Part shown: piece by piece, positions 7,196 through 20,648 of the stretch | Layout: each line of letters begins with the position of its first letter | Numbering within the stretch: position 1 is the stretch's first letter | Source of the DNA: Streptomyces sp. SCUT-3 | GTDB taxonomy: Bacteria > Actinomycetota > Actinomycetes > Streptomycetales > Streptomycetaceae | Direction: 5' to 3' | NCBI RefSeq assembly: GCF_014083985.1 | Contig: NZ_CP046907.1 | Span: 3,142,001 to 3,206,000, forward strand | DNA: 64,000 bases | Program-made: the position numbers and the translations under genes | Notes under the pieces: model-generated | Told to the model about the DNA's origin: nothing | What the model saw: only the letters and a program-made list of their open reading frames with translations | Databases searched by the model: none

Positions 7196-7945
7196 TCAGG
7201 GGGCGCGGTAGGACTGCAGGTGCGCGAAGACCACGACGTTGGCCGTGTAGTCCTTGGCCTTCTTGTCGTAGTTGCCGCCGCAGGTGATCAGGCGCAGCTG
7301 GGCGTCGTCGGTGTGCCCGTAGACCCGCTCGTCGGGGAAGTCGTCCTTGGCGAAGGTCTCCACCGCGTCGACGGTGAACACGGCGGTGCTGCCGTCCTCG
7401 CGGGTGATGTTCACGGTGGTTCCGGGAGTGACCGTGCCGAGCCGCCAGAAGACGGCCGGGCCCGTCTTGGTGTCCACGTGGCCGGCCACGATCGCGTTGC
7501 CGCGCTCACCGGGCGTGACGCCGTCCGCGTACCAGCCGACCAGGTTGTTGTCGTCGGGCGACGGCGCTTCCAGCGTGCCGTTCTCGTCCAGGCCCAGTTC
7601 GCTGAACGGGGCGTTCACCCCGATCCGGGGGATGGTGAGGCGCTTCGGGGCGGAGGACGGCATGGCGGGCCCGCCCGGCCCCTGGGCGTCGGCGGACGGC
7701 CCGGCCGGATCGTTCGCGGGGGAGCCGGGCGGGGTGCCGGGCGGGGCGCCGGCGGCGACGGTGGGGGCGCCCGCGGCGGCCGGCTCGGACGGCGAGGACG
7801 ACGAGGCGTCCACGGAGTTGTAGATCAGCAGGAGCCCGATGAGCGCCGATCCGGCGGCCCAGCGCAGGAGACGGCTGCCGTTCTCGGGTGCCTTCGGTTC
7901 CTTCGTCGCGGGAGTCTTCTCGGTCGGGGCCTGCGTGTCCTTCAC
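7196..7945 (-). CDS. Class F sortase
   Basis: A 249-residue membrane-anchored transpeptidase. A cytoplasmic N-terminus is followed by one membrane segment (about 29-43), a Pro/Ala/Gly-rich spacer (48-100) and the sortase fold (101-249). The catalytic His lies in AGHVDT (His-156) and the Cys in LITCGG (Cys-222), which is typical of actinobacterial class E/F enzymes. Such enzymes cleave a C-terminal sorting signal and attach the protein to the wall. The next gene on the same strand encodes a secreted protein with a C-terminal membrane segment and basic tail, its probable substrate. The 27 bases after its stop converge with the response regulator. Confidence 0.92.
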   Translation of the reverse strand: MKDTQAPTEKTPATKEPKAPENGSRLLRWAAGSALIGLLLIYNSVDASSSSPSEPAAAGAPTVAAGAPPGTPPGSPANDPAGPSADAQGPGGPAMPSSAPKRLTIPRIGVNAPFSELGLDENGTLEAPSPDDNNLVGWYADGVTPGERGNAIVAGHVDTKTGPAVFWRLGTVTPGTTVNITREDGSTAVFTVDAVETFAKDDFPDERVYGHTDDAQLRLITCGGNYDKKAKDYTANVVVFAHLQSYRAP

Positions 7946-8052: not shown

Positions 8053-8673
8053 TCAGACCGCGGTGCCGGCAGGGGTGCGGCGGCGCAGGGCGTAGGCGCC
8101 GGCGCCGAGACCGCCGAGGAGCAGGATCGCGCCGGAGGCCATGCCGCTCCCGGAGAGGGCCATGCCGCCGCCGCCGGTGTGCACGCCGCCGCGGGGCTTG
8201 TCGTAGTCGTTCCCCTTGCCCCCGCCGTACTCCTTGTGCTCGTCCTTCCTGGAGTCCTCGTACTTGCCGTAGTCGTCCTTCTTGGAGTCCTCGTACTTGC
8301 CGTAGTCGTCCTTCTTGGAGTCCTCGTACTTACCGGACTCCTCGTACTTGCCGCCCTCGTCCTTCTTGCCGTAGTCGTCCTCGTGCTTCCAGTCCTTCTC
8401 CTGCTTCCAGTCCTTGTCGTAGCCGCCTTCGTGCTTCCAGTCCTTGTCGTGCTTCCAGTCCTTGTCGTGGTCGCCTTCGTGCTTCCAGTCCTTCTCCTGC
8501 TTCCAGTCCTTGCCGTGGTCGTCCTCGTGCTTCCAGTCCTTGCCGTGGTCGCCACCGGAGGAGTTGGAGTAGCCGTGGTCGTCGGGGGACTGGTCGGCAT
8601 GGGCGACACCGCCACCCATGGTCAGCGCTGCGGCGACCGCGGTCGCGGCGAGAAGCGTGCGAGCAGAACGCAT
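8053..8673 (-). CDS. Secreted repeat-rich surface protein, probable sortase substrate
   Basis: A 206-residue protein with a signal peptide (basic start, hydrophobic core, Ala-His-Ala cleavage site near residue 26). Two repeat blocks follow: short Asp-Trp-Lys-rich units (KDWKHE/KDWKQE) over about 40-95, then 11-residue units (DDYGKYEDSKK) over about 110-145. A Gly-rich stretch (RGGVHTGGGG), a membrane segment (about 180-198) and a basic tail (LRRRTPAGTAV) end the protein. This is the layout of a wall-anchored protein, but no LPxTG-like motif is present; the Gly-rich stretch may be the signal. The start at 8673 is preceded by GGAAGGAT. The repeats are strongly charged and aromatic, suggesting a wall- or polymer-binding role, which is inferred. 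Confidence 0.75.
   Translation of the reverse strand: MRSARTLLAATAVAAALTMGGGVAHADQSPDDHGYSNSSGGDHGKDWKHEDDHGKDWKQEKDWKHEGDHDKDWKHDKDWKHEGGYDKDWKQEKDWKHEDDYGKKDEGGKYEESGKYEDSKKDDYGKYEDSKKDDYGKYEDSRKDEHKEYGGGKGNDYDKPRGGVHTGGGGMALSGSGMASGAILLLGGLGAGAYALRRRTPAGTAV
8242..8340. repeat. 33-bp in-frame tandem repeat, 3 copies
   Basis: Three near-identical 33-bp units encode the 11-residue Tyr/Lys/Asp-rich repeats of the surface protein. The third copy has diverged at its end. Confidence 0.9.
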
Positions 8674-8864
8674 GGGGAGTGATCCTTCCGGCGCTGCCTG
8701 CGACGGCTGACGGTTCGTCAGCTCGGGAATCACAGTGACGCCTACCTCACCGTCAGTCACCCGGGCCCGGTCTGCCACCGGAAAACGCCGTACCGGGGCC
8801 CGTATGTGGGCCCTTCAGGTGGCGGGAGCGGCCGTTTTCACTCGTTGGGCCCACCACTGCGGGA

Positions 8865-8907
8865 GCAACGCGGCTCCCGGCGCGTCGAGCGCCGGGAGCC
8901 GCGTTGC
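8865..8907 (-). terminator. Perfect 19-bp hairpin ending the pigment/carboxylase operon
   Basis: GCAACGCGGCTCCCGGCGC (8865-8883) pairs perfectly with 8889-8907 around a five-base loop. It lies 32 bases past the accC stop on the minus strand and before the surface-protein gene, so it marks the end of the long operon. There is no T-run. Confidence 0.8.
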
Positions 8908-8938
8908 CCGGGGGCGGTGCCGCAGGGGCGACGGTCCG

Positions 8939-10372
8939 TCAGGAGACTCCGGCGGGTGCCTCCTCGGCCCGCCCGGACGCACCCTCGGGGGCCGGGGCGG
9001 GGGCCGGTTCCGGGGCGGGGGCCGGTTCCGCGGTCATCGTGTCGACCAGCCCGGTGGTGTGCGTGGCCGAGCGGAACTCCGGGCGTGCCAGGGTGCGGCG
9101 CAGGAAGTCGATGGTCGTGCGCACCCCCCGGCCGTCGATCCGGAACTCGCTCAGCGCGCGGTCCATGCGGGCGACGGCCTGGGCCCGGTCGGGGGCCCAC
9201 ACCACGGCCTTCGCCAGCAGCGAGTCGTAGTCGGGGCCGATCGTCCAGCCCGGGTGGGCGTGGGTGTCGACCCGCACGAACGGCCCGCCCGGCGTCACGA
9301 ACTCGGTCAGCGGGCCGGGGGTCGGGACGAACCCCCGGGCGGGGTTCTCGGCGTTGATCCGGCACTCCACGGACGATCCGCGCACCACCACGTCGGACTG
9401 ACGGATGCTCAGCGGGAGCCCGGCGGCGACGAGGATCTGCTCGCGGACGATGTCGATCCCGGTGACCATCTCGGTGACCGGGTGCTCCACCTGGAGCCGG
9501 CAGTTGATCTCCATCAGGTAGAACTCGCCGGACGGGGCCAGGACGAACTCGAACGTCCCCGCCCCGGCGTACCCGACGGCCTTCGCGCCGCGCACCGCCG
9601 CCTCGCACATCTCCGTGCGCAGGGAATCGGGAAGGTTCGGGGCGGGGGACTCCTCGATCAGCTTCTGGTGGCGCCGCTGCACCGAGCAGTCCCGCTCGCC
9701 CAGGTGCACCGCCGCGCCGTGCCGGTCGCAGATCACCTGCACCTCGATGTGCCGGGCGTCCTCGACGTACCGCTCCAGGTAGAGGCGGTCGTCGCCGAAG
9801 ACGGCCCGGGCGTGGGCCCGCGTCTCGTTGTAGGCGCGCACCAGGCCGTCGGCGCTGCGGACCACGGCCATCCCGCGTCCGCCGCCGCCGGCCACGGCCT
9901 TGAGGATCACCGGGTAGCCGACCTGCTGGGCGGTCTCCTTGGCCTCCGCGGAGGAGGCCAGGGCGCCGGTGCTGCCCGGCAGCACGGGCAGCCCGGCCTG
10001 CGCCATCAGCGTGCGGGCCGCGGCCTTGTCGCCGAGCTGCTGCATCACCTCCGGGGACGGCCCGATGAAGGTGATCCCGTTCTCCTCGCAGATCTCCGCG
10101 AAGTCGGGGTCCTCGGAGAGGAACCCGTAACCCGGGTGGACGGCCTGCGCGCCGGTGCGCTGGGCCGCCTCGACGATCGCGGGGATGTTGAGGTAGCTGC
10201 CCCTGGCCGCGGGGGGCCCGATCTGGACTGCTTCGTCCGCGAAGCGGACGACCGCGGAGTCACGGTCCGCGGTGGAGTGGACCGCCACCGTCCGGAGGCC
10301 GAGTTCGCGGCAGGTGCGGGCCACCCGCAGCGCGATCTCCCCCCGGTTGGCGACGAGGACGGTAGAGAACAT
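8939..10372 (-). CDS. accC: Acetyl-CoA carboxylase, biotin carboxylase subunit
   Basis: A 477-residue ATP-grasp biotin carboxylase. It has the N-terminal Rossmann domain (VANRGEIALRVART), the Gly-rich ATP loop (GGGGRGMAVV), the catalytic region ERDCSVQRRHQKLIEE, EINCRLQVEHPVTEMVTG and the C-terminal domain. The last 40 or so residues are a non-conserved Ala/Pro/Glu tail. It carboxylates biotin on the carrier protein encoded just upstream. The ATG at 10372 is preceded by GAGAGGTG. It is the last gene of the minus-strand operon that begins with the pigment PKS genes, which points to malonyl-CoA supply for that pathway, although it could also serve general metabolism. Confidence 0.95.
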   Translation of the reverse strand: MFSTVLVANRGEIALRVARTCRELGLRTVAVHSTADRDSAVVRFADEAVQIGPPAARGSYLNIPAIVEAAQRTGAQAVHPGYGFLSEDPDFAEICEENGITFIGPSPEVMQQLGDKAAARTLMAQAGLPVLPGSTGALASSAEAKETAQQVGYPVILKAVAGGGGRGMAVVRSADGLVRAYNETRAHARAVFGDDRLYLERYVEDARHIEVQVICDRHGAAVHLGERDCSVQRRHQKLIEESPAPNLPDSLRTEMCEAAVRGAKAVGYAGAGTFEFVLAPSGEFYLMEINCRLQVEHPVTEMVTGIDIVREQILVAAGLPLSIRQSDVVVRGSSVECRINAENPARGFVPTPGPLTEFVTPGGPFVRVDTHAHPGWTIGPDYDSLLAKAVVWAPDRAQAVARMDRALSEFRIDGRGVRTTIDFLRRTLARPEFRSATHTTGLVDTMTAEPAPAPEPAPAPAPEGASGRAEEAPAGVS

Positions 10373-10459
10373 GCGGTCACCTCTCTGCGGTGTCGGAACG
10401 CCCGCCGGACCCCCGGCGGAGTGCGCGGGGGGCGGCGGCGTTCTCGGGGCGGAGCCCGC

Positions 10460-11110
10460 CTAGCGGCGGTCGTCCGCCTCGTCGTCGGAAAGCGGCTCCA
10501 CGGCCAGGAGGCGCTGCTGGAACTCCACGGGCTGCCCGTTGGGCGCGACGACCTCGACGACCCGTCCGGCCACGTCGGCCTCGACGGTGCTCATCATCTT
10601 CATGACCTCGAGGATCCCGACGGGCTGGCCGGGCCGGACCAGGTCGCCGACCGAGACGAACGGCGGCGCCTCCGGCTCGCGGGCGTGGTAGAAGGTGCCG
10701 ACCATCGGGGCGCACACGTACCGCAGCCGGTCCTGGGCGGCGGGGGCCGCCTCCGGGGCCGGGCCGGCGGCGACGGCGGCCGCGGCGGGTGCGGCGGCCG
10801 CGGCCACGGCGGCCGCGGCGGGGGCGGGCACGGGCGCCGGGCCCGGCCACTCCATCTCGACCGTCGTCTGCCCGTGCTGCAGCCTGATCCGGCTCGGGGG
10901 CTCGGGCGCGGTCCTGGCCAGTTCCGTCACGCTGCGGCACACCGAGTCCAGGGCGGCCTGCGACGGCGGCGCCTGCCCGTTGGCCTGCTGCTGCCCGCTC
11001 GCGTGCTGCACGTTGGCGTGCTGCACGGGGTCGGCGGCGACGATCTCGCCCATCACGCCGACCGGCCGGTGGCCGTTCTCGCGGTGTTCCCGCGTATCAC
11101 TGTTGATCAT
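10460..11110 (-). CDS. accB: Biotin carboxyl carrier protein of acetyl-CoA carboxylase
   Basis: A 216-residue BCCP with a variable N-terminus, an Ala/Pro-rich flexible linker (about 85-130) and a C-terminal biotinyl domain (about 135-205). The biotin site reads EVMKMMS, with Lys between Met residues; Val replaces the more usual Ala. A thumb-like insertion typical of AccB precedes it. The ATG at 11110 shares one base with the TGA of the upstream accDA gene, so translation is coupled. A TTG three bases earlier is less likely. The 87-base gap before accC contains that gene's ribosome site. Confidence 0.93.
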   Translation of the reverse strand: MINSDTREHRENGHRPVGVMGEIVAADPVQHANVQHASGQQQANGQAPPSQAALDSVCRSVTELARTAPEPPSRIRLQHGQTTVEMEWPGPAPVPAPAAAAVAAAAAPAAAAVAAGPAPEAAPAAQDRLRYVCAPMVGTFYHAREPEAPPFVSVGDLVRPGQPVGILEVMKMMSTVEADVAGRVVEVVAPNGQPVEFQQRLLAVEPLSDDEADDRR

Positions 11111-12942
11111 CAACGATGCACCTCTTCAGGGGTTTCTTCCGGCAGGTCGGGCGTCTCGACGCCGAAGCGGTGGAACCGCTCCCTGCGCTCGCGGAGCAGC
11201 CGGCCGGGCTCCCACGGCACCAGTTCGTCGAGGGCCTCGGACAGGGCGTCGCCGAGGAGCAGGGCCGCCTCGGCGTGGTCGCTGTGGGCGCCGCCCGGCG
11301 GTTCGGGGACGACCCCGTCGACGATGCCGAGGCGCAGCAGCTCCCCGGCGTGCATGCGCAGTGCGGACGCCGCGGCGGGCACGGCCTTGGGGTCCTTCCA
11401 CAGGATGGCCGCGCAGCCCTCGGGGCTGATCACCGAGTAGACGCCGTTGGCGCTGACGAGCACCCGGTCCGCGACGGCCAGGGCCAGCGCGCCCCCGCTG
11501 CCGCCCTCGCCCACGACGACGGTGACGATCGGCACCGGCAGCTGCGACATCAGCCGCAGGTTCTCGGCGATGGCGAGCGCCTGGCCGCCCCGCTCCGCGT
11601 CCGGCCCGGGGTTGGCGCCGGGGGTGTCGACCAGGGTGACCACCGGCATGCCCAGCTTGGCGGCCAGCCGCATGAGCCGGGCCGCCTTGCGGTAGCCGCC
11701 GGGGGTCGGCATGCCGAACAGGCGGCGGCGGCGCTCGGACAGGTCGGCACCGCCCTTGTGGTGGCCGATCAGCATCACCGGCCGGCCGCCCAGGCGCCCC
11801 GGTCCGCCCACGACGGCGGGGCAGTCCTCGTGGAGCCGGTCGCCGTGCAGCTCGTGGAAGTCGTCCACCAGGTGCCCGATGTAGTCGAGGGAGGTGGGGC
11901 GGTCGGCGTGCCGGGCCAGGCGCACCGCCTCCCAGGAGTCCCGGTCGGGGAGGTCCTCGGCCCGCCGCAGCAGGCTCCCGGGACGGGGCCCCGCCGGGGC
12001 CCGCCCGTCCGCGGCGGCCTGCGCGTCCGCGGCGGCCTGCGCGTCCGCGGCGGCCTGCGCGTCCGCGGCGGCCTGCGCGTCCGCGGCGGCCCGCCCGTCC
12101 GCGTCCGGGCCGGGGGCGGGCCGGAGGGAGAGCAGCCGCGCCAGGACGCCCCGCAGGGCGGGCCGCGCCACGACGTCGTCCACCATGCCGTGCGCGAGCA
12201 GGAACTCCGCGGTCTGGAAGCCCTCCGGCAGCTTCTCGCCGATGGTCTGCTCGATCACCCGCGGCCCGGCGAAGCCGAGCCTGGCCCCCGGCTCGGCGAG
12301 GATCACGTCCGTGAGGGTGGCGAAGGACGCCGCCACGCCCCCGTAGGTGGGGTCGGTGATCAGGGAGACCGTCAGGATCCCCGCCTCGTCGAGCTCGGCG
12401 AGCGCCTGCGCGGTCTTGGCCATCTGCATCAGGGACAGCACGCCCTCCTGCATCCGTGCGCCGCCGGAGGCGGTGACGATCAGCAGCGGGACGCGCTCGC
12501 GCAGACTGGTGCGGGCGGCCCCGGCGATCAGCGCGCCGACCCCACAGCCCAGGCTGCCGCCGAGGAACCGGAAGTCCATGGCGGCCACGACCAGGGGCTT
12601 TCCCTCGATGCTGCCCCGCACGCACACCACCGCCTCCCGCAGGCCGGTGGCCGCACGGGCCTGTTCCAGCCGTTCGGGGTAGGGCCGGGTGTCGGTGAAG
12701 GCCAGGGGGTCGTCGAGGGGCTCCACCTCCTCCAGGGGCACGGCCGAGCCGGGGTCGAGCAGGTGTTCCAGCCGCTGGTGCGCCGTCAGGCGGTCGTGAC
12801 GGCCGCAGTCCGGGCACACCCGCAGCAGGCGGGTGAAGCGCTTGCCGTAGACCAGCGCGGCGCAGCCCTCGCACCGGACCCAGTCGGGCGTGCCGGGCGT
12901 GTCGGGTGCGCGGGTGGTCGGCCGGTCGTCGATCTCGACCAT
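11110..12942 (-). CDS. accDA: Acetyl-CoA carboxylase carboxyltransferase, fused beta-alpha (AccD-AccA)
   Basis: A 610-residue fusion of both carboxyltransferase subunits. The beta half opens with a Cys4 zinc finger (Cys-24, 27, 43, 46) followed by the AccD crotonase fold ([19 protein letters not shown]). The alpha half, from about 320, contains the AccA region GHHKGG, the loop [10 protein letters not shown] and [11 protein letters not shown]. The halves are joined by an Ala-Asp-Ala-Gln repeat linker (about 283-312) encoded by an 18-bp repeat. The product transfers CO2 from carboxybiotin to acetyl-CoA. Fused plant- or E. coli-type carboxylases are uncommon in actinobacteria, which mostly use separate acyl-CoA carboxylase complexes, so this points to a pathway-dedicated enzyme. 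GGAGGAA precedes the ATG. Confidence 0.93.
12007..12096. repeat. 18-bp in-frame tandem repeat, 5 copies, in the AccD-AccA linker
   Basis: Four perfect copies and one variant of an 18-bp unit (GTCCGCGGCGGCCTGCGC on the plus strand) encode a repeating Ala/Asp/Gln linker between the two carboxyltransferase halves. Confidence 0.93.
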
Positions 12943-12982
12943 GGGTGGGTTCCTCCGGTGTCCGTCGGCCGTCAGGGGTGGT

Positions 12983-13327
12983 TCACAGGGAGATGGAGGT
13001 GCTTCCCTCGCGCTCCCAGCGGTAGAACTCGTTGGCCATGGCGTCCTTCGGGACCCGCCAGGTCTCCGGGTCGTAGGCCTCGATGTAGGGCCGGAGCTTC
13101 CGGCTGATGTCCTGGAACTCCGGGTGCTTGGTGTAGCGGGCGACCTGGGGGCCGGGCGGGGTCTCGGACTCGACCAGGTGCATGTACAGCTCGCCGAACT
13201 GGAACAGGCTGCGGCCGGTGACTCCGATCAGGTGCGGCAGTTCGCCGCGGTCGGACTCGGCGAAGACGTCGGCGACGTCGGGGGCGGACTCGGGCTTCAT
13301 ACGGGCGACGATCAGGACGCGGTGCAT
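12983..13327 (-). CDS. TcmI-family polyketide cyclase (WhiE ORFVII type)
   Basis: A 114-residue protein of the TcmI/Cyclase_polyket family (dimeric ferredoxin-like fold) that closes later rings of aromatic polyketides. Visible family signatures are HRVLIVARM at the start, the [12 protein letters not shown] strand and the C-terminal region with [12 protein letters not shown]. Length matches TcmI (about 110). GGAAGGAA precedes the ATG. It lies between the aromatase and the carboxylase genes, matching ORFVII in whiE order. The 207-base gap before it contains a purine-only tract. Confidence 0.93.
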
Positions 13328-13403
13328 GCGTCGGGTTCCTTCCTGGGACGGGCTTCTCGGTGCCCGGGGTGGGTGGTGAGGCCCGTCTGGGGGCCGGGGG
13401 AGC

Positions 13404-13449
13404 GGGGAGGGAGGGGGAGAAGGGGGAGGGGGAGAAGGGGGAGGGAGGG
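13404..13449. repeat. 46-base all-purine, G-run tract with 15-bp repeat
   Basis: From 13404 to 13449 the plus strand contains only G and A, with many runs of four or five G. The core 13412-13446 is a 15-bp unit, AGGGGGAGAAGGGGG, in just over two copies. It lies between the aromatase and cyclase genes, so the operon transcript carries the pyrimidine complement and the coding-strand template carries the G-runs. Confidence 0.85.
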
Positions 13450-13535
13450 CGCCGGGCCCGCCGGGCCGCCGGGGTGGCGGCCCGGCCGGTGGCGGGGCGC
13501 CGGCCGGGAGTACCGCGCCGGCCGGCCGGGGCGTG

Positions 13536-14298
<763 letters not shown>

Positions 14299-14365
14299 CA
14301 GGGGTTTCTCCTTGTCGGTAGGGCCGCCCCGGGCGCCCCGGCGGGGCGCGGGGAAGGGCGGCGGG

Positions 14366-15607
14366 TCAGGTCGGTGCGTCGCCCCGGCGCAGCACCAGGG
14401 CCGAGTTGGAGCCCATGAGCCCCCGGGAGAGCACCAGTGCGGTGCGCAGCTCGGCGGTCCGGGCCAGGCCGGTCACCAGGGCGATGTCGTGGCAGACGTC
14501 GGTGACGCCCGGGGTGGGCGGCACGACGCCGTGCTCCATGGCGAGCACCGCGGCGGCGGTGTCCAGCAGGGCGGTGCCGCAGTAGGCCCGTCCGGTGCCG
14601 GCCTTGGGCGCGGTCACCGGGACCCGCGAGCCGTGCGGCCCCAGGGCGTCGGTGATCGCCAGCGCCTCGGCGCGGTCGGCCTCGGGCACGCCGAGGGCGT
14701 CGGCGAAGACCACGTCGACCTCCTCCGGCGCGCACGCCGCGTCCTCCAGTGCCGTCCGGACGGCACGGGCCAGGCCCTCCCGGGACCGCTCCCACCCGGC
14801 GGTACCGGTGAAGGTGGCCCCGTGCCCGGCGACGACCGCCCGGACCGGTGCGCCGCGGCGGCGGGCCGCCGACTCCTCCTCCGCCACGAACATCGCGCCG
14901 CCCTCGGCGGGCACGAACCCGCAGGCGTCCGCGCTGAAGGGGAGGTAGGCCCGCGCGGGGTCCGCCGACCGGCTGAGCTCGTCGTAGCCGAGCTGGCAGA
15001 CGATCGAGTACGGGGCCAGGGGGGCTTCGGCGGCCCCGACGACCATCGCGTCCGTGCCGCGCCGGATGCCGCGGCGGGCGTGCGCGAGGGCGTCCAGTCC
15101 GCCCGCCTCGTCACTGGCCACCACCCCGCAGGGGCCCTTGAAGCCCCCGCGGATGGAGATCTGGCCGGTGCTGGCCGCGTAGAACCAGGCGATGGACTGG
15201 TAGGGGCCGACGAAGCGGGGTCCCTGCCCCCACAGCCGCTGCAGCTCGTGCTGGCCGAACTCCCCGCCGCCGGAACCGGTGGCGGTCACCACGCCCACCG
15301 CGAACGGCGAGCCGTCGGCGGTGTCGAGCCGGGCGTCCTCCAGGGCGAGGTCGGCCGCCGCCATCGCGAGGTGCGTGAACCGGTCGGTCTGGACCAGGTA
15401 CCGGCCCTCGATCACCGATGCCGGGTCGAAGGACCGGATCTCGCCGGCGACCTTCAGCGGGAGGTGCTCGCACCCCTCCCGGGAGATCGGGTCGAGGACG
15501 CTCACCCCTTCCTTGGTCGCCTTCCAGAAGGCGTCGGCGCCCACGCCGTTGGGGGCGACCACGCCCATGCCCGTGAGGGCCGTGCGCCGTTTCGTCGGTG
15601 AATCCAT
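14366..15607 (-). CDS. Ketosynthase chain-length factor (KS-beta, WhiE ORFIV type)
   Basis: A 413-residue KS-like partner of KS-alpha that sets chain length and primes by decarboxylating malonyl-ACP. The thiolase fold is complete (RRTALTGMGVVAPNGVG at the start). The nucleophile position, aligned through GPCGVVASDEAGGLD, carries Glu instead of the Cys of a ketosynthase; most chain-length factors have Gln there. The ATG at 15607 lies two bases after the KS-alpha TAA stop; a much longer open frame upstream is the KS-alpha shadow. The pair forms the heterodimer of the minimal PKS. Confidence 0.95.
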   Translation of the reverse strand: MDSPTKRRTALTGMGVVAPNGVGADAFWKATKEGVSVLDPISREGCEHLPLKVAGEIRSFDPASVIEGRYLVQTDRFTHLAMAAADLALEDARLDTADGSPFAVGVVTATGSGGGEFGQHELQRLWGQGPRFVGPYQSIAWFYAASTGQISIRGGFKGPCGVVASDEAGGLDALAHARRGIRRGTDAMVVGAAEAPLAPYSIVCQLGYDELSRSADPARAYLPFSADACGFVPAEGGAMFVAEEESAARRRGAPVRAVVAGHGATFTGTAGWERSREGLARAVRTALEDAACAPEEVDVVFADALGVPEADRAEALAITDALGPHGSRVPVTAPKAGTGRAYCGTALLDTAAAVLAMEHGVVPPTPGVTDVCHDIALVTGLARTAELRTALVLSRGLMGSNSALVLRRGDAPT

Positions 15608-15609
15608 CG

Positions 15610-16872
15610 TTACCTCGCTCCCGTGCGGCGGAGGACCACCGCGGACTGGAAGCCGCCGAACCCGCTGCCGACGGACAGCACTGTCCGCAGCGGCATCTCG
15701 CGCGCCGTCCTGGGCACGTAGTCCAGGTCGCACTCGGGGTCGGGGACCTCGTAGTTCGCGGTCGGGGGGACGACACCGCGGGCCAGGGCCAGGGTGCAGG
15801 CCACGACCTCTATCGCTCCGATGGCCCCCAGCGAGTGCCCGACCATGGACTTGATCGAGCTCATCGGGGTCTCGTAGGCGTGCTCGCCCAGCGACCTCTT
15901 GACCGCCGCGGTCTCGTGCCGGTCGTTCTGCTTGGTGCCCGAGCCGTGGGCGTTGACGTAGTCGACCTCGGTCCTGTCGGCCCGGGCGTGCGCCAGTGCC
16001 TCGTCGATGGCCCGGGACATCTCCAGGCCCTCGGTGGTCAGCCCGGTCATGTGGTAGGCGTTGCCGAAGGTGGCGAAGCCGCCGACCTCGCACAGCACCT
16101 CGGCGCCGCGGCGCCGGGCGTGCTCCAGCTCCTCCAGGACGAGGACGGCGCCGCCCTCGCCCAGGACGAAGCCGTCCCGGCGGGCGTCGAAGGGGCGGGA
16201 GGCGCCGGCCGGGTCGTCGTTGTTCGCCGTGGTCGCCTTGATGGCGTCGAAGCAGGCCACGGTGATCGGGGAGATCGGCGAGTCCGCGGCGCCGGCCAGG
16301 ACGATGTCCGCCCGTCCCTCCTCGATGCTGTGGAAGGCGTAGCCGATGGCGTCCAGGCCGGAGGTGCAGCCCGTCGAGACGGTCTGCACCGGGCCGTGGG
16401 CGCCGTGCGCCTCCGCCACGTGCGAGGCCAGGGTGCTGGGTGCGAACACCCGCTCCAGGTGCGGCCCGACCCGGCGGTGGTCCACGTCCCAGCGGCTCCC
16501 GGAGGCGCTGGCCAGGACGTAGTCGTGCTCCAGGCGGGTGGTGCCGCCGACCGCGGAGCCCAGCGACACCCCCACCCGCCAGGGGTCCTCGGCGGCCAGG
16601 TCGAGACCGGAGGCGCGCACCGCCTCGGCCGCGGCGGCCAGGGCGAACTGCACGTACCGGTCGGCGGTCGCGATCTGCTCGTCGTCCAGGCCGCAGGCCG
16701 CCGGGTCGAAGTCGCACTCGGCGGCGACCCGGGAGCGGTACCCGGACGCGTCGAAGAGGGTGATGCCGCGGGTGGCGGTGCGGCCCGCGGTCAGCAGGTC
16801 CCAGAACGCCGGGACGCCCACCCCTCCGGGAGCGACGATGCCGATTCCGGTGACCGCCACGCGCCGGGTCAC
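15610..16872 (-). CDS. Ketosynthase KS-alpha (WhiE ORFIII type)
   Basis: A 420-residue beta-ketoacyl synthase, the catalytic half of the minimal type II PKS. The nucleophile is Cys-169 in [11 protein letters not shown], and the two catalytic His residues lie in VNAHGSGTK and [10 protein letters not shown]. Overall sequence is closer to spore-pigment synthases than to the actinorhodin type, by memory. Its GTG start overlaps the TGA of the cupin gene (16869-16872), giving tight translational coupling. It ends in TAA, rare in this genome. Confidence 0.96.
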
Positions 16873-17321
16873 GTGGCCGCCCCGGCGGGCTCGGGCGGCA
16901 CCGCCCCGCCGCCGACCATGCCCTCGTCGGAACCCTCGGTGACCTCGGTGTCCACGTGGCCGAGTTCGGGGCGCGGGGCGAGCGGGCCCAGGTGGAAGAC
17001 CACGCGGGCCTCCACGTTGCCCACGTTGCGGAAGCGGTGCCGCATGTCGATCGGGATCATCAGGCCCTGCTCGGGGCGCAGCGGCACGGTGGTGCCGTTC
17101 AGGTCCACCTCGAGGTCGCCGCAGACGACGTACACGAACTCCTCGGAGTACGGGTGGTAGTGCTCGCCGATCCGCTCGCCCGGCTTCATGATGGCCACGC
17201 CCATGAACCCGCTGGTGGAGCCCACCGTCTTGGGGGTGAGCATGGCGCGCAGGTCGCCGCCGCGGCGGCGGTTGGGCGGGGCCTCGTCGAGGTTGACGAT
17301 GCGTGGGAGCTGCGTGGTCAT
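16869..17321 (-). CDS. Cupin protein (WhiE ORFII/CurC type)
   Basis: A 150-residue single-domain cupin. The metal-binding motif is visible as [17 protein letters not shown], with a second motif around MRHRFRNVG. The equivalent gene sits in the same place, just before KS-alpha, in whiE and related spore-pigment clusters; its reaction is unresolved, with ring-closure or oxygenation roles suggested. The C-terminal 25 residues are low complexity. The start ATG at 17321 follows a plausible GAGGAGAA. Confidence 0.9.
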
Positions 17322-17376
17322 GGTGTTCTCCTCGGGAGATGAGGGCGGTACTGCCGCGTCCGGCGCGGGCGCGGTG

Positions 17377-18600
17377 TCATCGGTCCTGGGCCAGTCGGTC
17401 GGTGACCAGGGCCATGTCGCAGTCGGCGAGGAGGCTCCGCAGCCCCTCTTCGCCGGCCGTGTCGGTTTCCGCTCCGGCCTCCAGCAGCCGGAGGGCGGCG
17501 GCGGCCTGGCGGGGGGTGCCGAGTCCGAGCACCGCGGCGGGCCCGTCCTCCGGTGCGGTGCGCGTGTCGACGACCCGCACGACGGTGTCGTCGCGCCGCA
17601 GGACGGTGCTGCGCACCACGGGGTGGGCCGGGTCGGCCACCGCCTCGTCGTCCCGGCGCGCCAGCAGCCGGGCCAGCTCCCCGCCGCACCCGGGCCGCAC
17701 GGGGTACAGGAAGGCGCGGCGCCGCGCGTCGCCGGGCACGGGCCCGTCGGCGGCCGCGTGGTGGAACAGCGGCAGGGCCGCGCGGGCGTAGAACTCCCGG
17801 GCGGCCTCCGGGCTGCCCAGGTCGCGGTTCTCCTCCAGGTGGGGGCGCACCGCGTCCTCGACGGCCTGCACCTCGGGCTGGGCCGCCACGTGCCGCAGTG
17901 CGGCGGCCAGGTCGCCCCCGACCTCGATCACCCGCACCACCCGGTTGCGGTGCATGAACAGCGAGGTGCGCAGCAGCCGGGTCTCGTCGTCGACCCGCGT
18001 CTCCGGGACGGCGTAGCCGGACATGATCTCGGCCACCGCCTGCTCGCTGCCGGGACGCACGGTGAAGGTGAGGCCGTGCCGGACGACGCCGTCGGCGCAC
18101 GGCCGCGAGGCGGGGCCGTGCGCACCGTTCGCCTTTGTGCCGTTCGCCTGTGCGCCGTTCGCCTGTGTGCCGTGCGCCTGTGTGCGCGGGGTGCCGTCGG
18201 GGGCGGGGGCGCCGGTGTCGGCGGGGCCCGACGTCTCCCGGACGACCTCGAAGCGCAGCGAGCGCATCTCGCGGATGCACACGCGCATCGGCTTGACCAT
18301 GTCCCGGTGCTCCTGGCTGTCCACCCACTCCAGGAAGGGACGGGCGTCCTCCCACTCGCTGGTGATCAGCCACTGCGAGGGGTCGTCGATCGACTGGCAC
18401 AGCTGGTCCTTGATGTGCCCGGGGGTGGCGGCGACCAGGTGCCGCAGGTCCTCGTAGGCGTCCAGGAACCGGTCGCCCGCGCCCTCGTGGAGGTCGAGCA
18501 TCAGCAGCACGCGCAGCCGTGAGCCCTTCGGCCCGCCCGGGCCGTCCGGCACGTCCGGGCGGACGGGGGCGGCATGGGGCCTCTCGGACAGTGTCGTCAT
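17377..18600 (-). CDS. SchA/CurD-like protein (WhiE ORFI type)
   Basis: A 407-residue protein with two SchA/CurD-type domains. The N-terminal one (about 25-120) has a ferredoxin-like, antibiotic-monooxygenase-like strand pattern ([28 protein letters not shown]). The second spans about 150-270 and a third, looser region follows. The halves are linked by an Ala/Asn/Gly/Thr repeat encoded by a 15-bp repeat. This family is known only beside spore-pigment PKS genes and its role in pigment tailoring is not established. The start at 18600 is preceded by AAGGAG; an upstream in-frame start at 18879 runs through non-coding sequence. It is the first gene of the ten-gene operon. Confidence 0.88.
18126..18185. 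repeat. 15-bp in-frame tandem repeat, 4 copies, in the SchA/CurD-like gene
   Basis: Units close to CGTTCGCCTGTGTGC encode an Ala-Asn-Gly-Thr-Gln type linker. Copies differ by one or two bases. Confidence 0.9.
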
Positions 18601-19019
18601 GTTCTCGTTTCTCCTTACGCGAGGGAGCGGCCCGGCGGTGCGGGCGGTGGCGGTCACCGCCCGGCGGTGCCAGGTCGGAGACGGTGCAGGAGGGTCGACG
18701 GTCCTGCGCGTCGCCGGTGCGGCGGCGGGGCGTTCCCTCCCCCGAGACGTTCCGGGTCCGGGCCGTTGCCGGCCGGCCCCCGGTTCCCCGTTGGCGGTTC
18801 CCCGTCCGGTCCGCCGGCCGCCGGTGGGCGGCAGGCGTTCCGTGACGGGTGCACAGAAGTGATCGTGGTGCGAAGTCAAGGGAGGCGCGATTTTGACAGG
18901 CCATCCGGGCGAACAGGGGCAAACCGACCCTCCCGGGCGGGGAGAGAACCACCCCGGGCACCGCCGGAGGCGGCGGCCGGACGGCCGGGCCCTATCCCAT
19001 CCACAGGCTGGAGCAAGCG
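18601..19019. promoter_or_regulatory. Divergent promoter region of the pigment cluster
   Basis: These 419 bases separate the minus-strand PKS operon from the plus-strand monooxygenase. TTGACA at 18893-18898 (plus) and TTGACT read on the minus strand at 18874-18879 could be back-to-back -35 hexamers, but no good -10 follows either. Two direct copies of GGTTCCCCGT lie near 18780-18800. The in-frame extension of the SchA/CurD gene into this region has no ribosome site and is treated as non-coding. In S. coelicolor the matching region drives whiE during sporulation; that control is assumed, not seen. Confidence 0.45.
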
Positions 19020-20648
19020 ATGACCCCGAAGACCGACGACCGGGTGCCGGTCCTCGTCGTGGGCGGTTCCCTGGTGGGACTGTCCACGTCCCTCTTCCTG
19101 GGCCGACTGGGCATCAGGAACCTGCTGGTCGAGAAGCACGCGACCACCTCGCACCACCCCCGCGGACGGGGCAACAACGTCCGCACCATGGAGCTGTTCC
19201 GCACCGCCGGGGTGGAGGGCGACATCCGCGAGGCCGCGTCCGTCCTGGCCGGCAACCACGGCATCCTGCAGGCGCACTCCCTCACCGGGACGGACGCCGA
19301 ATGGCTGTTCAAGGAGATGGACCCCGACGGCAGGCTCGCCCTCATCAGCCCCAGCGGCTGGTGCCTGGGCAGCCAGAACGACCTGGAGCCCGTCCTGCTG
19401 CGGCACGCCGCCGACCTCGGCGCCGACATCAGGTTCGGCACCGAGATGGTCTCCTTCGAACAGGACGCCGACGGCGTCACCGCCGAACTGCTCGACCGCG
19501 CGAGCGGCGGGCGGCGCACCGTGCGCGCCGACTACCTGGTCGCCGCGGACGGCCCCCGCAGCCCCGTGCGGAAGCGGCTGGGCATCGGGCAGACCGGGCC
19601 CGGCGCGCTGTTCCACAACGTCAGCGTCACCTTCCGGGCCAAGGGACTGGCCGACGTGGTGGGCGACCGCCGCTTCATCGCCTGCTACATCACCAACCCC
19701 GAGGCCGAGGGCGCCCTGCTGCCGGTGGACAACGCGGAGAACTGGGTCTTCCACGCCCCCTGGCACCCCGAGGACGGCGAGGACCTGGAGGAGTTCACCG
19801 ACGAGCGGTGCGCGCAGCACATCCGCACCGCCACAGGAGTGCCCGACCTCGAGGTCGAGATCACCGGAAAGGCCCCCTGGCACGCCGCCGAACGGGTGGC
19901 CGACCGCTACGGCAGCGGCCGCGTCTTCCTCGCCGGCGACTCCGCCCACGAGATGTCCCCCACCGGGGCCTTCGGCGCCAACACCGGCATCCAGGACGCG
20001 CACAACCTCGCCTGGAAGCTCGCCGCCGTCATCGACGGCTGGGCCGGCCCCGGCCTGCTGGACACCTACGAGGCCGAGCGGCGCCCGGTGGCGAGGGCGA
20101 CGGCCGAGCGGGCCTCCGGCCGCTCCGCCGAGCACAGCCACCCCGGCTACGAGGCCGTGCCCGGCGTCGGACGCCAGGGCAACGTGATGGCGGTGGTCCT
20201 GGGCTACCGCTACACCTCCGGCGCCGTCGTCGGCGTCGACCCCTCCCTGCCGGCCGTGCCCGAGCAGTTCCGCCCCGCGGCGGAGCCGGGCTGCCGGGCC
20301 CCGCACATGTGGCTGCGCCGCGGCGGCGAGCGGCTGTCCACGCTGGACCTGTACGAGCGGGTGCCGGTCCTGCTCACCGGGGCGGGCGGCGCGGCCTGGC
20401 AGGAGGCGGCCCAGCGGGTCGCCGGACGGCTCGGCGTCCCCCTGGAGGTCCACCGGGTCGGCGAGGGGCCGGGGTGCGACCTGGCGCCCGAGGACGGCGC
20501 CGACTGGGCGAAGGTCCACCGTGCGGCGGACGACGGCGCGGTCCTGGTGCGCCCGGACGGATTCATGGCCTGGCGCTCGGAGAGCGCCGCGGAGGACCCG
20601 GAGCGGATCCTCACCGAAGTCCTCAGGTCCCTGCTGAACCGGGCCTGA
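19020..20648 (+). CDS. FAD-dependent aromatic monooxygenase (WhiE ORFVIII/SchC type)
   Basis: A 542-residue group A flavin hydroxylase. The N-terminal FAD site (VLVVGGSLVGLSTSLFLGRLG split as VLVVGGSLVGL and STSLFLGRLG), the middle Asp-Gly motif (VAADGPRSPVRK) and the C-terminal FAD ribityl site (GDSAHEMSPTGAFGANTGIQ) are all present. The C-terminal 130 residues form the thioredoxin-like domain of larger PKS hydroxylases. It would hydroxylate the aromatic polyketide using NAD(P)H and O2. Divergent placement from the PKS operon is the classical whiE arrangement. A perfect 22-bp hairpin follows seven bases after the stop. Confidence 0.94.
   Translation: MTPKTDDRVPVLVVGGSLVGLSTSLFLGRLGIRNLLVEKHATTSHHPRGRGNNVRTMELFRTAGVEGDIREAASVLAGNHGILQAHSLTGTDAEWLFKEMDPDGRLALISPSGWCLGSQNDLEPVLLRHAADLGADIRFGTEMVSFEQDADGVTAELLDRASGGRRTVRADYLVAADGPRSPVRKRLGIGQTGPGALFHNVSVTFRAKGLADVVGDRRFIACYITNPEAEGALLPVDNAENWVFHAPWHPEDGEDLEEFTDERCAQHIRTATGVPDLEVEITGKAPWHAAERVADRYGSGRVFLAGDSAHEMSPTGAFGANTGIQDAHNLAWKLAAVIDGWAGPGLLDTYEAERRPVARATAERASGRSAEHSHPGYEAVPGVGRQGNVMAVVLGYRYTSGAVVGVDPSLPAVPEQFRPAAEPGCRAPHMWLRRGGERLSTLDLYERVPVLLTGAGGAAWQEAAQRVAGRLGVPLEVHRVGEGPGCDLAPEDGADWAKVHRAADDGAVLVRPDGFMAWRSESAAEDPERILTEVLRSLLNRA

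Follow-up and report, generated by a model that had tools for sequence, protein, structure and literature searches.

The whiE spore-pigment cluster is a reference for the coupling of spore maturation to secondary metabolism, and a locus of Streptomyces sp. SCUT-3 raises the question of whether polyketide synthesis at the spore stage needs a malonyl-CoA source of its own. We analyzed a stretch of 64,000 nucleotides (contig NZ_CP046907.1, positions 3,142,001 to 3,206,000; here the window, with coordinates counted from its first letter), in which ten minus-strand genes (18600-8939) follow the order of a whiE cluster and then continue into a complete set of acetyl-CoA carboxylase genes. We consider it very probable that this is a whiE-type run ending in a complete carboxylase, which was inherited with its polyketide synthase (PKS), was lost many times and would act as a dedicated malonyl-CoA source.

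A whiE-type gene run followed by carboxylase genes

Read 5' to 3' on the minus strand, the order is SchA/CurD, cupin, alpha subunit of the ketosynthase (KS-alpha; KS below), chain length factor (CLF), acyl carrier protein (ACP), aromatase (ARO), TcmI-type cyclase (CYC), accDA, accB and accC. All ten genes and a divergent hydroxylase gene matched the expected Pfam or NCBIfam families. The initial annotation had recognized the whiE plan with its divergent hydroxylase, and every gene was found where it had been placed, with families and order matching. By gene order and the divergent hydroxylase, the run is assigned to the whiE-type clusters; its KS belongs with those of whiE type and separates from the antibiotic type, both in the split of E-values and as a clade of the KS+CLF tree.

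The accDA gene (P0002; 11110..12942, minus) encodes a fused carboxyltransferase, beta before alpha, with AccD and AccA family matches. Its AccD half matched TIGR00515 accD with 327.6 bits over residues 20-273, above the cut-off, and its AccA half matched PF03255 ACCA with 346.2 bits over residues 335-594. The AccA half also exceeded the NCBIfam AccA_sub cut-off and narrowly missed two accA equivalogs (348.3 vs 357 and 319.1 vs 319.3 bits). P0002 is a true AccD-AccA fusion. The start codon (ATG) of accB (biotin carboxyl carrier protein; 10460..11110, minus) overlaps the accDA stop; the gene matched TIGR00531 with 116.5 bits, above the cut-off, and its translation contains the motif EVMKMM, whose lysine we take to be the biotin site. 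The accC gene (biotin carboxylase subunit; 8939..10372, minus) matched TIGR00514 with 628.5 bits, above the cut-off, and its product aligns with a solved biotin carboxylase across 450 residues. Because a biotin carboxylase, a carrier and both carboxyltransferase halves are present, the carboxylase is complete, with all four AccABCD functions represented by family matches; the initial annotation had likewise placed an acetyl-CoA carboxylase in this run of genes.

The linker between the AccD and AccA halves of the window protein (about 11940-12120) contains an AADAQ-type repeat. The same genome has a second AccDA-type fusion, 36-39% identical (G000:C1:5092742-5094355; L188, 7581-9359), which adjoins protease genes and a short-chain dehydrogenase gene; the 17 kb read contain neither an accB nor an accC match. 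Matches to the AccD half at 41-45% were found at 39 places in the family sample described below, this second fusion included.

The block occupies one place in many relatives

We searched an evenly drawn family sample of 249 genomes from 17 genera. A KS match at 1e-140 was found in 228, with best E-values split between 1e-184 and 1e-207, and 184 of the 249 have a whiE-type KS, the window genome counted. The AccD half matched 38 other genomes at >70% identity, and all 38 places were fetched and read. Every one sits behind the cyclase of a whiE-type run, in the order divergent hydroxylase, SchA, cupin, KS, CLF, ACP, ARO, CYC, accDA, accB, accC (38/38; three without cupin and ARO matches, one contig-cut, one with a broken KS). 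With the window, 39 genomes carry the block; 37 lie within the 184, and the remaining two, with KS broken (L125) or contig-cut (L126), were left out of the trees, the hairpin scan and the congruence analysis. The same order was also found in two Kitasatospora, Streptomyces sp. PH10-H1 and Streptacidiphilus melanogenes, and in Actinacidiphila soli without cupin and aromatase matches.

The initial annotation would have been refuted by finding the carboxylase in most whiE clusters, which the cluster comparison did not show: the block is present, at the same place, in 37 of the 184 whiE-type genomes. By genus code, it was found in 1/1 genomes of g1, 3/3 of g2, 3/3 of g3 (Streptacidiphilus), 3/3 of g5, 8/33 of g7 (Actinacidiphila), 17/64 of g14 (Kitasatospora) and 2/2 of g16, and in 0/1 of g9, 0/67 of g10 (Streptomyces), 0/3 of g12, 0/3 of g13 and 0/1 of g17. 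The absence of a carboxylase from classical whiE, as stated in that annotation, was supported by the 67 Streptomyces with a whiE-type KS and by a larger Streptomyces sample, in which 2 of 392 genomes had a whiE-type AccD, at 81%. In one of these, L219, the block was confirmed across the whole run; the other, L208, was read from CLF to accDA, and is very likely S. pathocidini, at the same position as L012. Of the 147 whiE genomes without the carboxylase, we fetched and read 46; the other 101 had no AccD match >67% identity genome-wide, with the limit that drafts may hide some. Several genera of the family thus share the arrangement, and the best reading is that it predates the textbook form; the initial annotation had missed both points.

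Three carboxylase-bearing g7 loci (L091, L104 and L116) have neither a cupin nor an aromatase match in the run, and other aromatase-like genes (55-64%) lie elsewhere in their genomes.

Selection, spacers and hairpins along the run

The ratio of nonsynonymous to synonymous substitution rates (dN/dS) was calculated for ten close pairs of relatives, the window excluded. The medians were 0.20 for accDA, 0.17 for accC and 0.45 for accB, compared with 0.14 for KS and 0.18 for CLF, indicating purifying selection on the carboxylase genes in relatives.

The initial annotation had described the run as free of a terminator before accDA, with a strong hairpin only after accC. The first part stood, since the 40-bp cyclase-accDA spacer is structured at chance level (z-score 0.26). 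The hairpin 3' of accC (8820..8938, minus) is strong as well, with a minimum free energy of -76.2 kcal/mol (folded 8820-8940), a z-score of -5.13 and 0/200 shuffles reaching it. The word "only" did not stand, because the accB-accC spacer is a second structured one (-50.5 kcal/mol, z -2.03). A consensus scan of 8500-19100 detected no sigma-70-like promoter and no T-run terminator, and the terminator-like hairpin is therefore not a canonical T-run terminator.

We compared the relatives, in which gaps between genes are based on estimated gene starts. The CYC-accDA gap has a median of 38 bp (34 loci) and the accB-accC gap one of 9 bp (36 loci). Perfect stems of at least 12 bp, scanned in 120-bp windows behind genes, were found behind CYC in 22 of 46 clusters without the carboxylase genes (acc) vs 2 of 36 with them (Fisher p 2e-5, relatedness ignored), a comparison biased by the fact that in acc-bearing loci the window behind CYC enters the accDA coding sequence. 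Such stems were found behind accC in 11 of the 36 acc-bearing clusters and elsewhere in the run behind 0-3 of 36; resampled controls, made by first-order resampling rather than exact shuffling, gave 0/230 and 1/180. The placement of hairpins supports, without proving, one transcript that would end behind the last gene. Besides the bias just mentioned, the single transcript has to contend with the lack of a long stem behind accC in 25 of the 36 carboxylase-bearing loci, with stems behind the aromatase in 5 of 46 block-free clusters, and with a gap in the window itself.

This gap, the longest in the window run, lies between aromatase and cyclase rather than between cyclase and accDA (13328..13535, minus; 208 bp). 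It is C/T-rich, folds within chance (z 1.70 and -1.10) and may be a transcript break. In relatives, the corresponding median is 18 bp with the block (n=33) and 19.5 bp without it, and the gap reaches at least 200 bp in 1/33 and 1/46, respectively. Because a promoter or a transcript end is possible in the 208-bp gap, the case for a single operon in the window genome is weakest here, and cyclase and carboxylase genes starting in it might form a separate, perhaps silent unit. We regard such a unit as unlikely: the gap is short in relatives, their hairpins are placed as described, accDA and accC are under purifying selection in the pairs examined, and the cyclase would be parted from its PKS as well.

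Shared history of the carboxylase and the PKS

In a phylogeny of AccDA with other PKS-linked carboxylases, a comparison that the initial annotation had proposed, the whiE-linked AccDA formed one clade (37 rows, Shimodaira-Hasegawa-like approximate likelihood ratio test [SH-aLRT] 99; 100/100 in a 7-row tree). The AccDA tree and the KS+CLF tree of these 37 clusters had 27 of 34 splits in common, compared with a mean of 0.25 and a maximum of 3 in 1000 label shuffles. No conflict was found among branches with support of at least 95, and the distance correlation was 0.90. Since the two trees agree, PKS and carboxylase appear to have travelled together. By these comparisons, the run closes in many relatives with an intact and complete set of fused AccDA, AccB and AccC, which share the history of the PKS.

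The carboxylase-bearing clusters did not form one clade on KS+CLF, such a clade being rejected by the approximately unbiased test (p-AU 2e-72, 40 rows). Presence and absence required at least 9 state changes on KS+CLF with 96 rows and 10 with 40 rows. A 64-row tree likewise gave 10; it held L207, a row with data in 27% of columns and a branch that was an artefact, which was swapped for the full locus L219 in the 40-row tree. S. pathocidini (L012) was placed among carboxylase-free Streptomyces rows (7-row clade, 100/98).

Flanks of loci with and without the block were compared directly, with positions counted from tblastn match ends; clustering of raw open reading frames (ORFs) was dropped, as unrelated frames chained in high-GC DNA. 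In L010, the DNA 740-2998 behind accC matches the DNA 65-2360 behind CYC in its close, block-free relative L129 at 82% identity over 2.3 kb. Downstream DNA was common to 9 of 10 pairs of a locus with the block and a locus without it, the exception being L013-L167; L011 and L013, both with the block, also have no downstream DNA in common, and for L153 and L182 the common DNA starts 1.6-1.8 kb behind the cyclase. On the 3' side of the whiE run in L010 (14327-15364) and L129 lies a convergent O-methyltransferase gene (PF00891), the first gene of their common stretch, and matching DNA recurs in other loci; its position makes a pigment-modifying gene possible.

Taken together, one origin, shared history and scattered absence suggest repeated loss. 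As the trees and flanks suggest, an early ancestor of the carboxylase-bearing clusters in this family would already have had the block beside its PKS, and many losses would have followed, affecting nearly all examined Streptomyces too. The best reading of the textbook Streptomyces whiE is that of a reduced form of an older arrangement. We put forward more tentatively, at somewhat less than even odds, that the family's spore-pigment operons first had their own carboxylase, which would have made spore malonyl-CoA independent of the vegetative enzyme, and that repeated clean loss rewired supply to primary metabolism, leaving the textbook whiE as the derived form.

Several results pull the other way. 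Most whiE clusters (147/184) do without the block, and the carboxylase is therefore not required by the pathway in general. The 46 flanks of block-free clusters contained no carboxylase remnant (best E 0.13), so no loss was caught half-way. The KS+CLF tree set L219 apart from the Streptomyces rows, without resolving its position. Outside the family, the closest KS relatives (L189-L192, 68-70%) have no acc genes in the 19.5 kb read. Of 15 outside stretches, 5 have acc genes, and these belong to a single genus code, with some of the others contig-cut; the outgroup alone is therefore no proof of the ancestral state. These five have the order CYC-accDA-accB-accC-ARO-cupin-KS-CLF. On the 96-row KS+CLF tree, 11 losses cost the same as 11 gains, and 11 gains explain the tree without any loss.

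Such gains would mean that several whiE clusters acquired the block independently and each time behind the cyclase, the donor being a different kind of type II PKS cluster or another whiE cluster. Patchy presence (8/33 in g7, 17/64 in Kitasatospora), the block-free outside KS relatives and the occurrence of CYC-accDA-accB-accC in other actinobacterial PKS clusters fit this explanation. We nevertheless think it quite improbable, as the 37 whiE-linked AccDA form one clade that tracks the PKS tree without strongly supported conflict, and AccDA of other clusters are just 53-64% identical. Loss is preferred over gain because AccDA is one clade and the trees agree.

Predicted role of the carboxylase

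A dedicated malonyl-CoA supply is the likely function of the carboxylase, judged from its gene families and setting. AccC would carboxylate the biotin on AccB, AccDA would form malonyl-CoA by transferring the carboxyl group to acetyl-CoA, and the minimal PKS would consume the product. In block-free Streptomyces, malonyl-CoA would have to come from the primary carboxylase. We infer the substrate, timing and benefit of the enzyme; higher flux, or a malonyl-CoA shortage in aerial spores, is a possible benefit.

The acc genes might instead serve general lipid synthesis or other acyl-CoA carboxylation in sporulation, or supply a starter, rather than the pigment extender. The window genome has several other PF01039 carboxyltransferases, among which labor may be divided, and the substrate is assigned by sequence. 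We give this role little credence, because accD, accC and accB score above the cut-offs of the acetyl-CoA type, with accA above AccA_sub and narrowly below the equivalogs, and because the acc linkage tracks the PKS. In addition, perHIJ of the persiamycin type II PKS cluster is described as forming malonyl-CoA (PMC7296137). We rejected chance adjacency of PKS and acc genes because the order recurs in 38/38 matching loci, and a one-off lateral gain in the window genome because seven genus codes have that order. An antibiotic-type pentangular carboxylase-bearing cluster was rejected because the window KS, CLF and AccDA all fall in whiE clades.

The block offers a natural presence/absence series, at one site and in close relatives, for the question posed at the outset. 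If the proposed history holds, it is also a case of a biosynthetic operon seen losing its precursor-supply module many times.

PKS genes and surroundings of the run

The SchA/CurD protein with an ABM domain (17377..18600, minus; whiE ORF I position) matched PF04486 (145.1 bits) and PF03992 (61.1 bits), and the cupin cyclase (16869..17321, minus; ORF II position) matched PF07883. KS-alpha (15610..16872, minus) and CLF, or KS-beta (14366..15607, minus), both matched PF00109/PF02801; KS-alpha is 76-85% identical to whiE-type KS among the matches listed, and CLF was assigned with the help of gene order. The ACP (14044..14298, minus) matched PF00550, and the TcmI-type cyclase (12983..13327, minus; ORF VII position) matched PF04673 with 148 bits. 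The aromatase/cyclase (13536..14042, minus; ORF VI position; PF03364) scored 226-228 bits with the solved polyketide cyclase 3tvr/3tl1/2kf2, presumably S. coelicolor WhiE ORF VI, and 180 bits with TcmN, which places it nearer the solved WhiE-type enzymes than TcmN by alignment score.

The divergent hydroxylase, predicted to be FAD (flavin adenine dinucleotide)-dependent (19020..20648, plus; ORF VIII position), had as its best NCBIfam match the RdmE-type aklavinone 12-hydroxylase (531.5 bits, below the cut-off of 700), and it points away from the run in relatives too. In the divergent intergenic region (18601..19019), a block at 18901-18913 is also present in other whiE loci, whether or not they have acc. 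With at most one mismatch allowed, the 9-mers starting at 18901-18905 were found in 44-49 of the 79 upstream regions, compared with 6-12 of 79 after base shuffling, and 13-16 of the hits belong to the 36 acc-bearing loci. The promoter hunt upstream of whiE runs had this modest yield, one apparently conserved block.

Beyond the accC hairpin lie genes for a secreted protein (8053-8673, minus), with a KDWKHE-type charged tandem repeat and, at its C terminus, a hydrophobic stretch plus RRR, and for a sortase (7196-7945, minus; PF04203), possibly a surface protein and its anchor. Matches to this sortase were also found in relatives: 18 of 46 block-free loci have one behind the cyclase, and 3 of 41 block-bearing loci have one behind accC.

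Comparison with known systems

In the literature, whiE is given as eight genes, with whiE-like pathways in other genera (PMC4255298), and the characterized spore-pigment clusters of one list (PMC8487521) come without exception from Streptomyces, a genus that almost always lacks the block. Spore-pigment clusters are named in Embleya, Yinghuangia, Kitasatospora and an acidophilic Streptomyces (PMC13152386, PMC8236941, PMC11117518, PMC6998099), and Nocardiopsis clusters are regarded as spore-pigment-like (PMC7296137). The word carboxylase does not occur in the main texts of the four former papers or of one on type II clusters (PMC4383371). No description of a spore-pigment cluster with a carboxylase was found in the literature searched, which left most subscription papers outside.

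The window resembles the whiE/cur/sch spore-pigment clusters of Streptomyces (ORF I-VIII) in gene order and divergent hydroxylase, in KS identity and, in most comparisons, in downstream context, but these clusters stop after the cyclase, whereas the window continues with accDA, accB and accC. AccDA together with AccB and AccC is also known from persiamycin, whose perHIJ are the acetyl-CoA carboxylase of that cluster (PMC7296137), and from Micromonospora/Salinispora clusters, which have the sub-block CYC-accDA-accB-accC ahead of ARO-cupin-KS-CLF. The initial annotation had called the fused type unusual in actinobacteria, which our data did not support: 18 of 80 loci fetched by AccDA similarity, besides 6 of whiE type, adjoin type II KS and CLF in other actinobacteria. 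These other carboxylase-bearing type II PKS clusters differ from the window in KS (58-68% identical), in AccDA, in the remaining gene order and in their separate clades. The window shares AccA, AccB, AccC and AccD with the Escherichia coli-type multi-subunit acetyl-CoA carboxylase, but unlike that type its AccD and AccA are fused in one chain, encoded within a PKS run.

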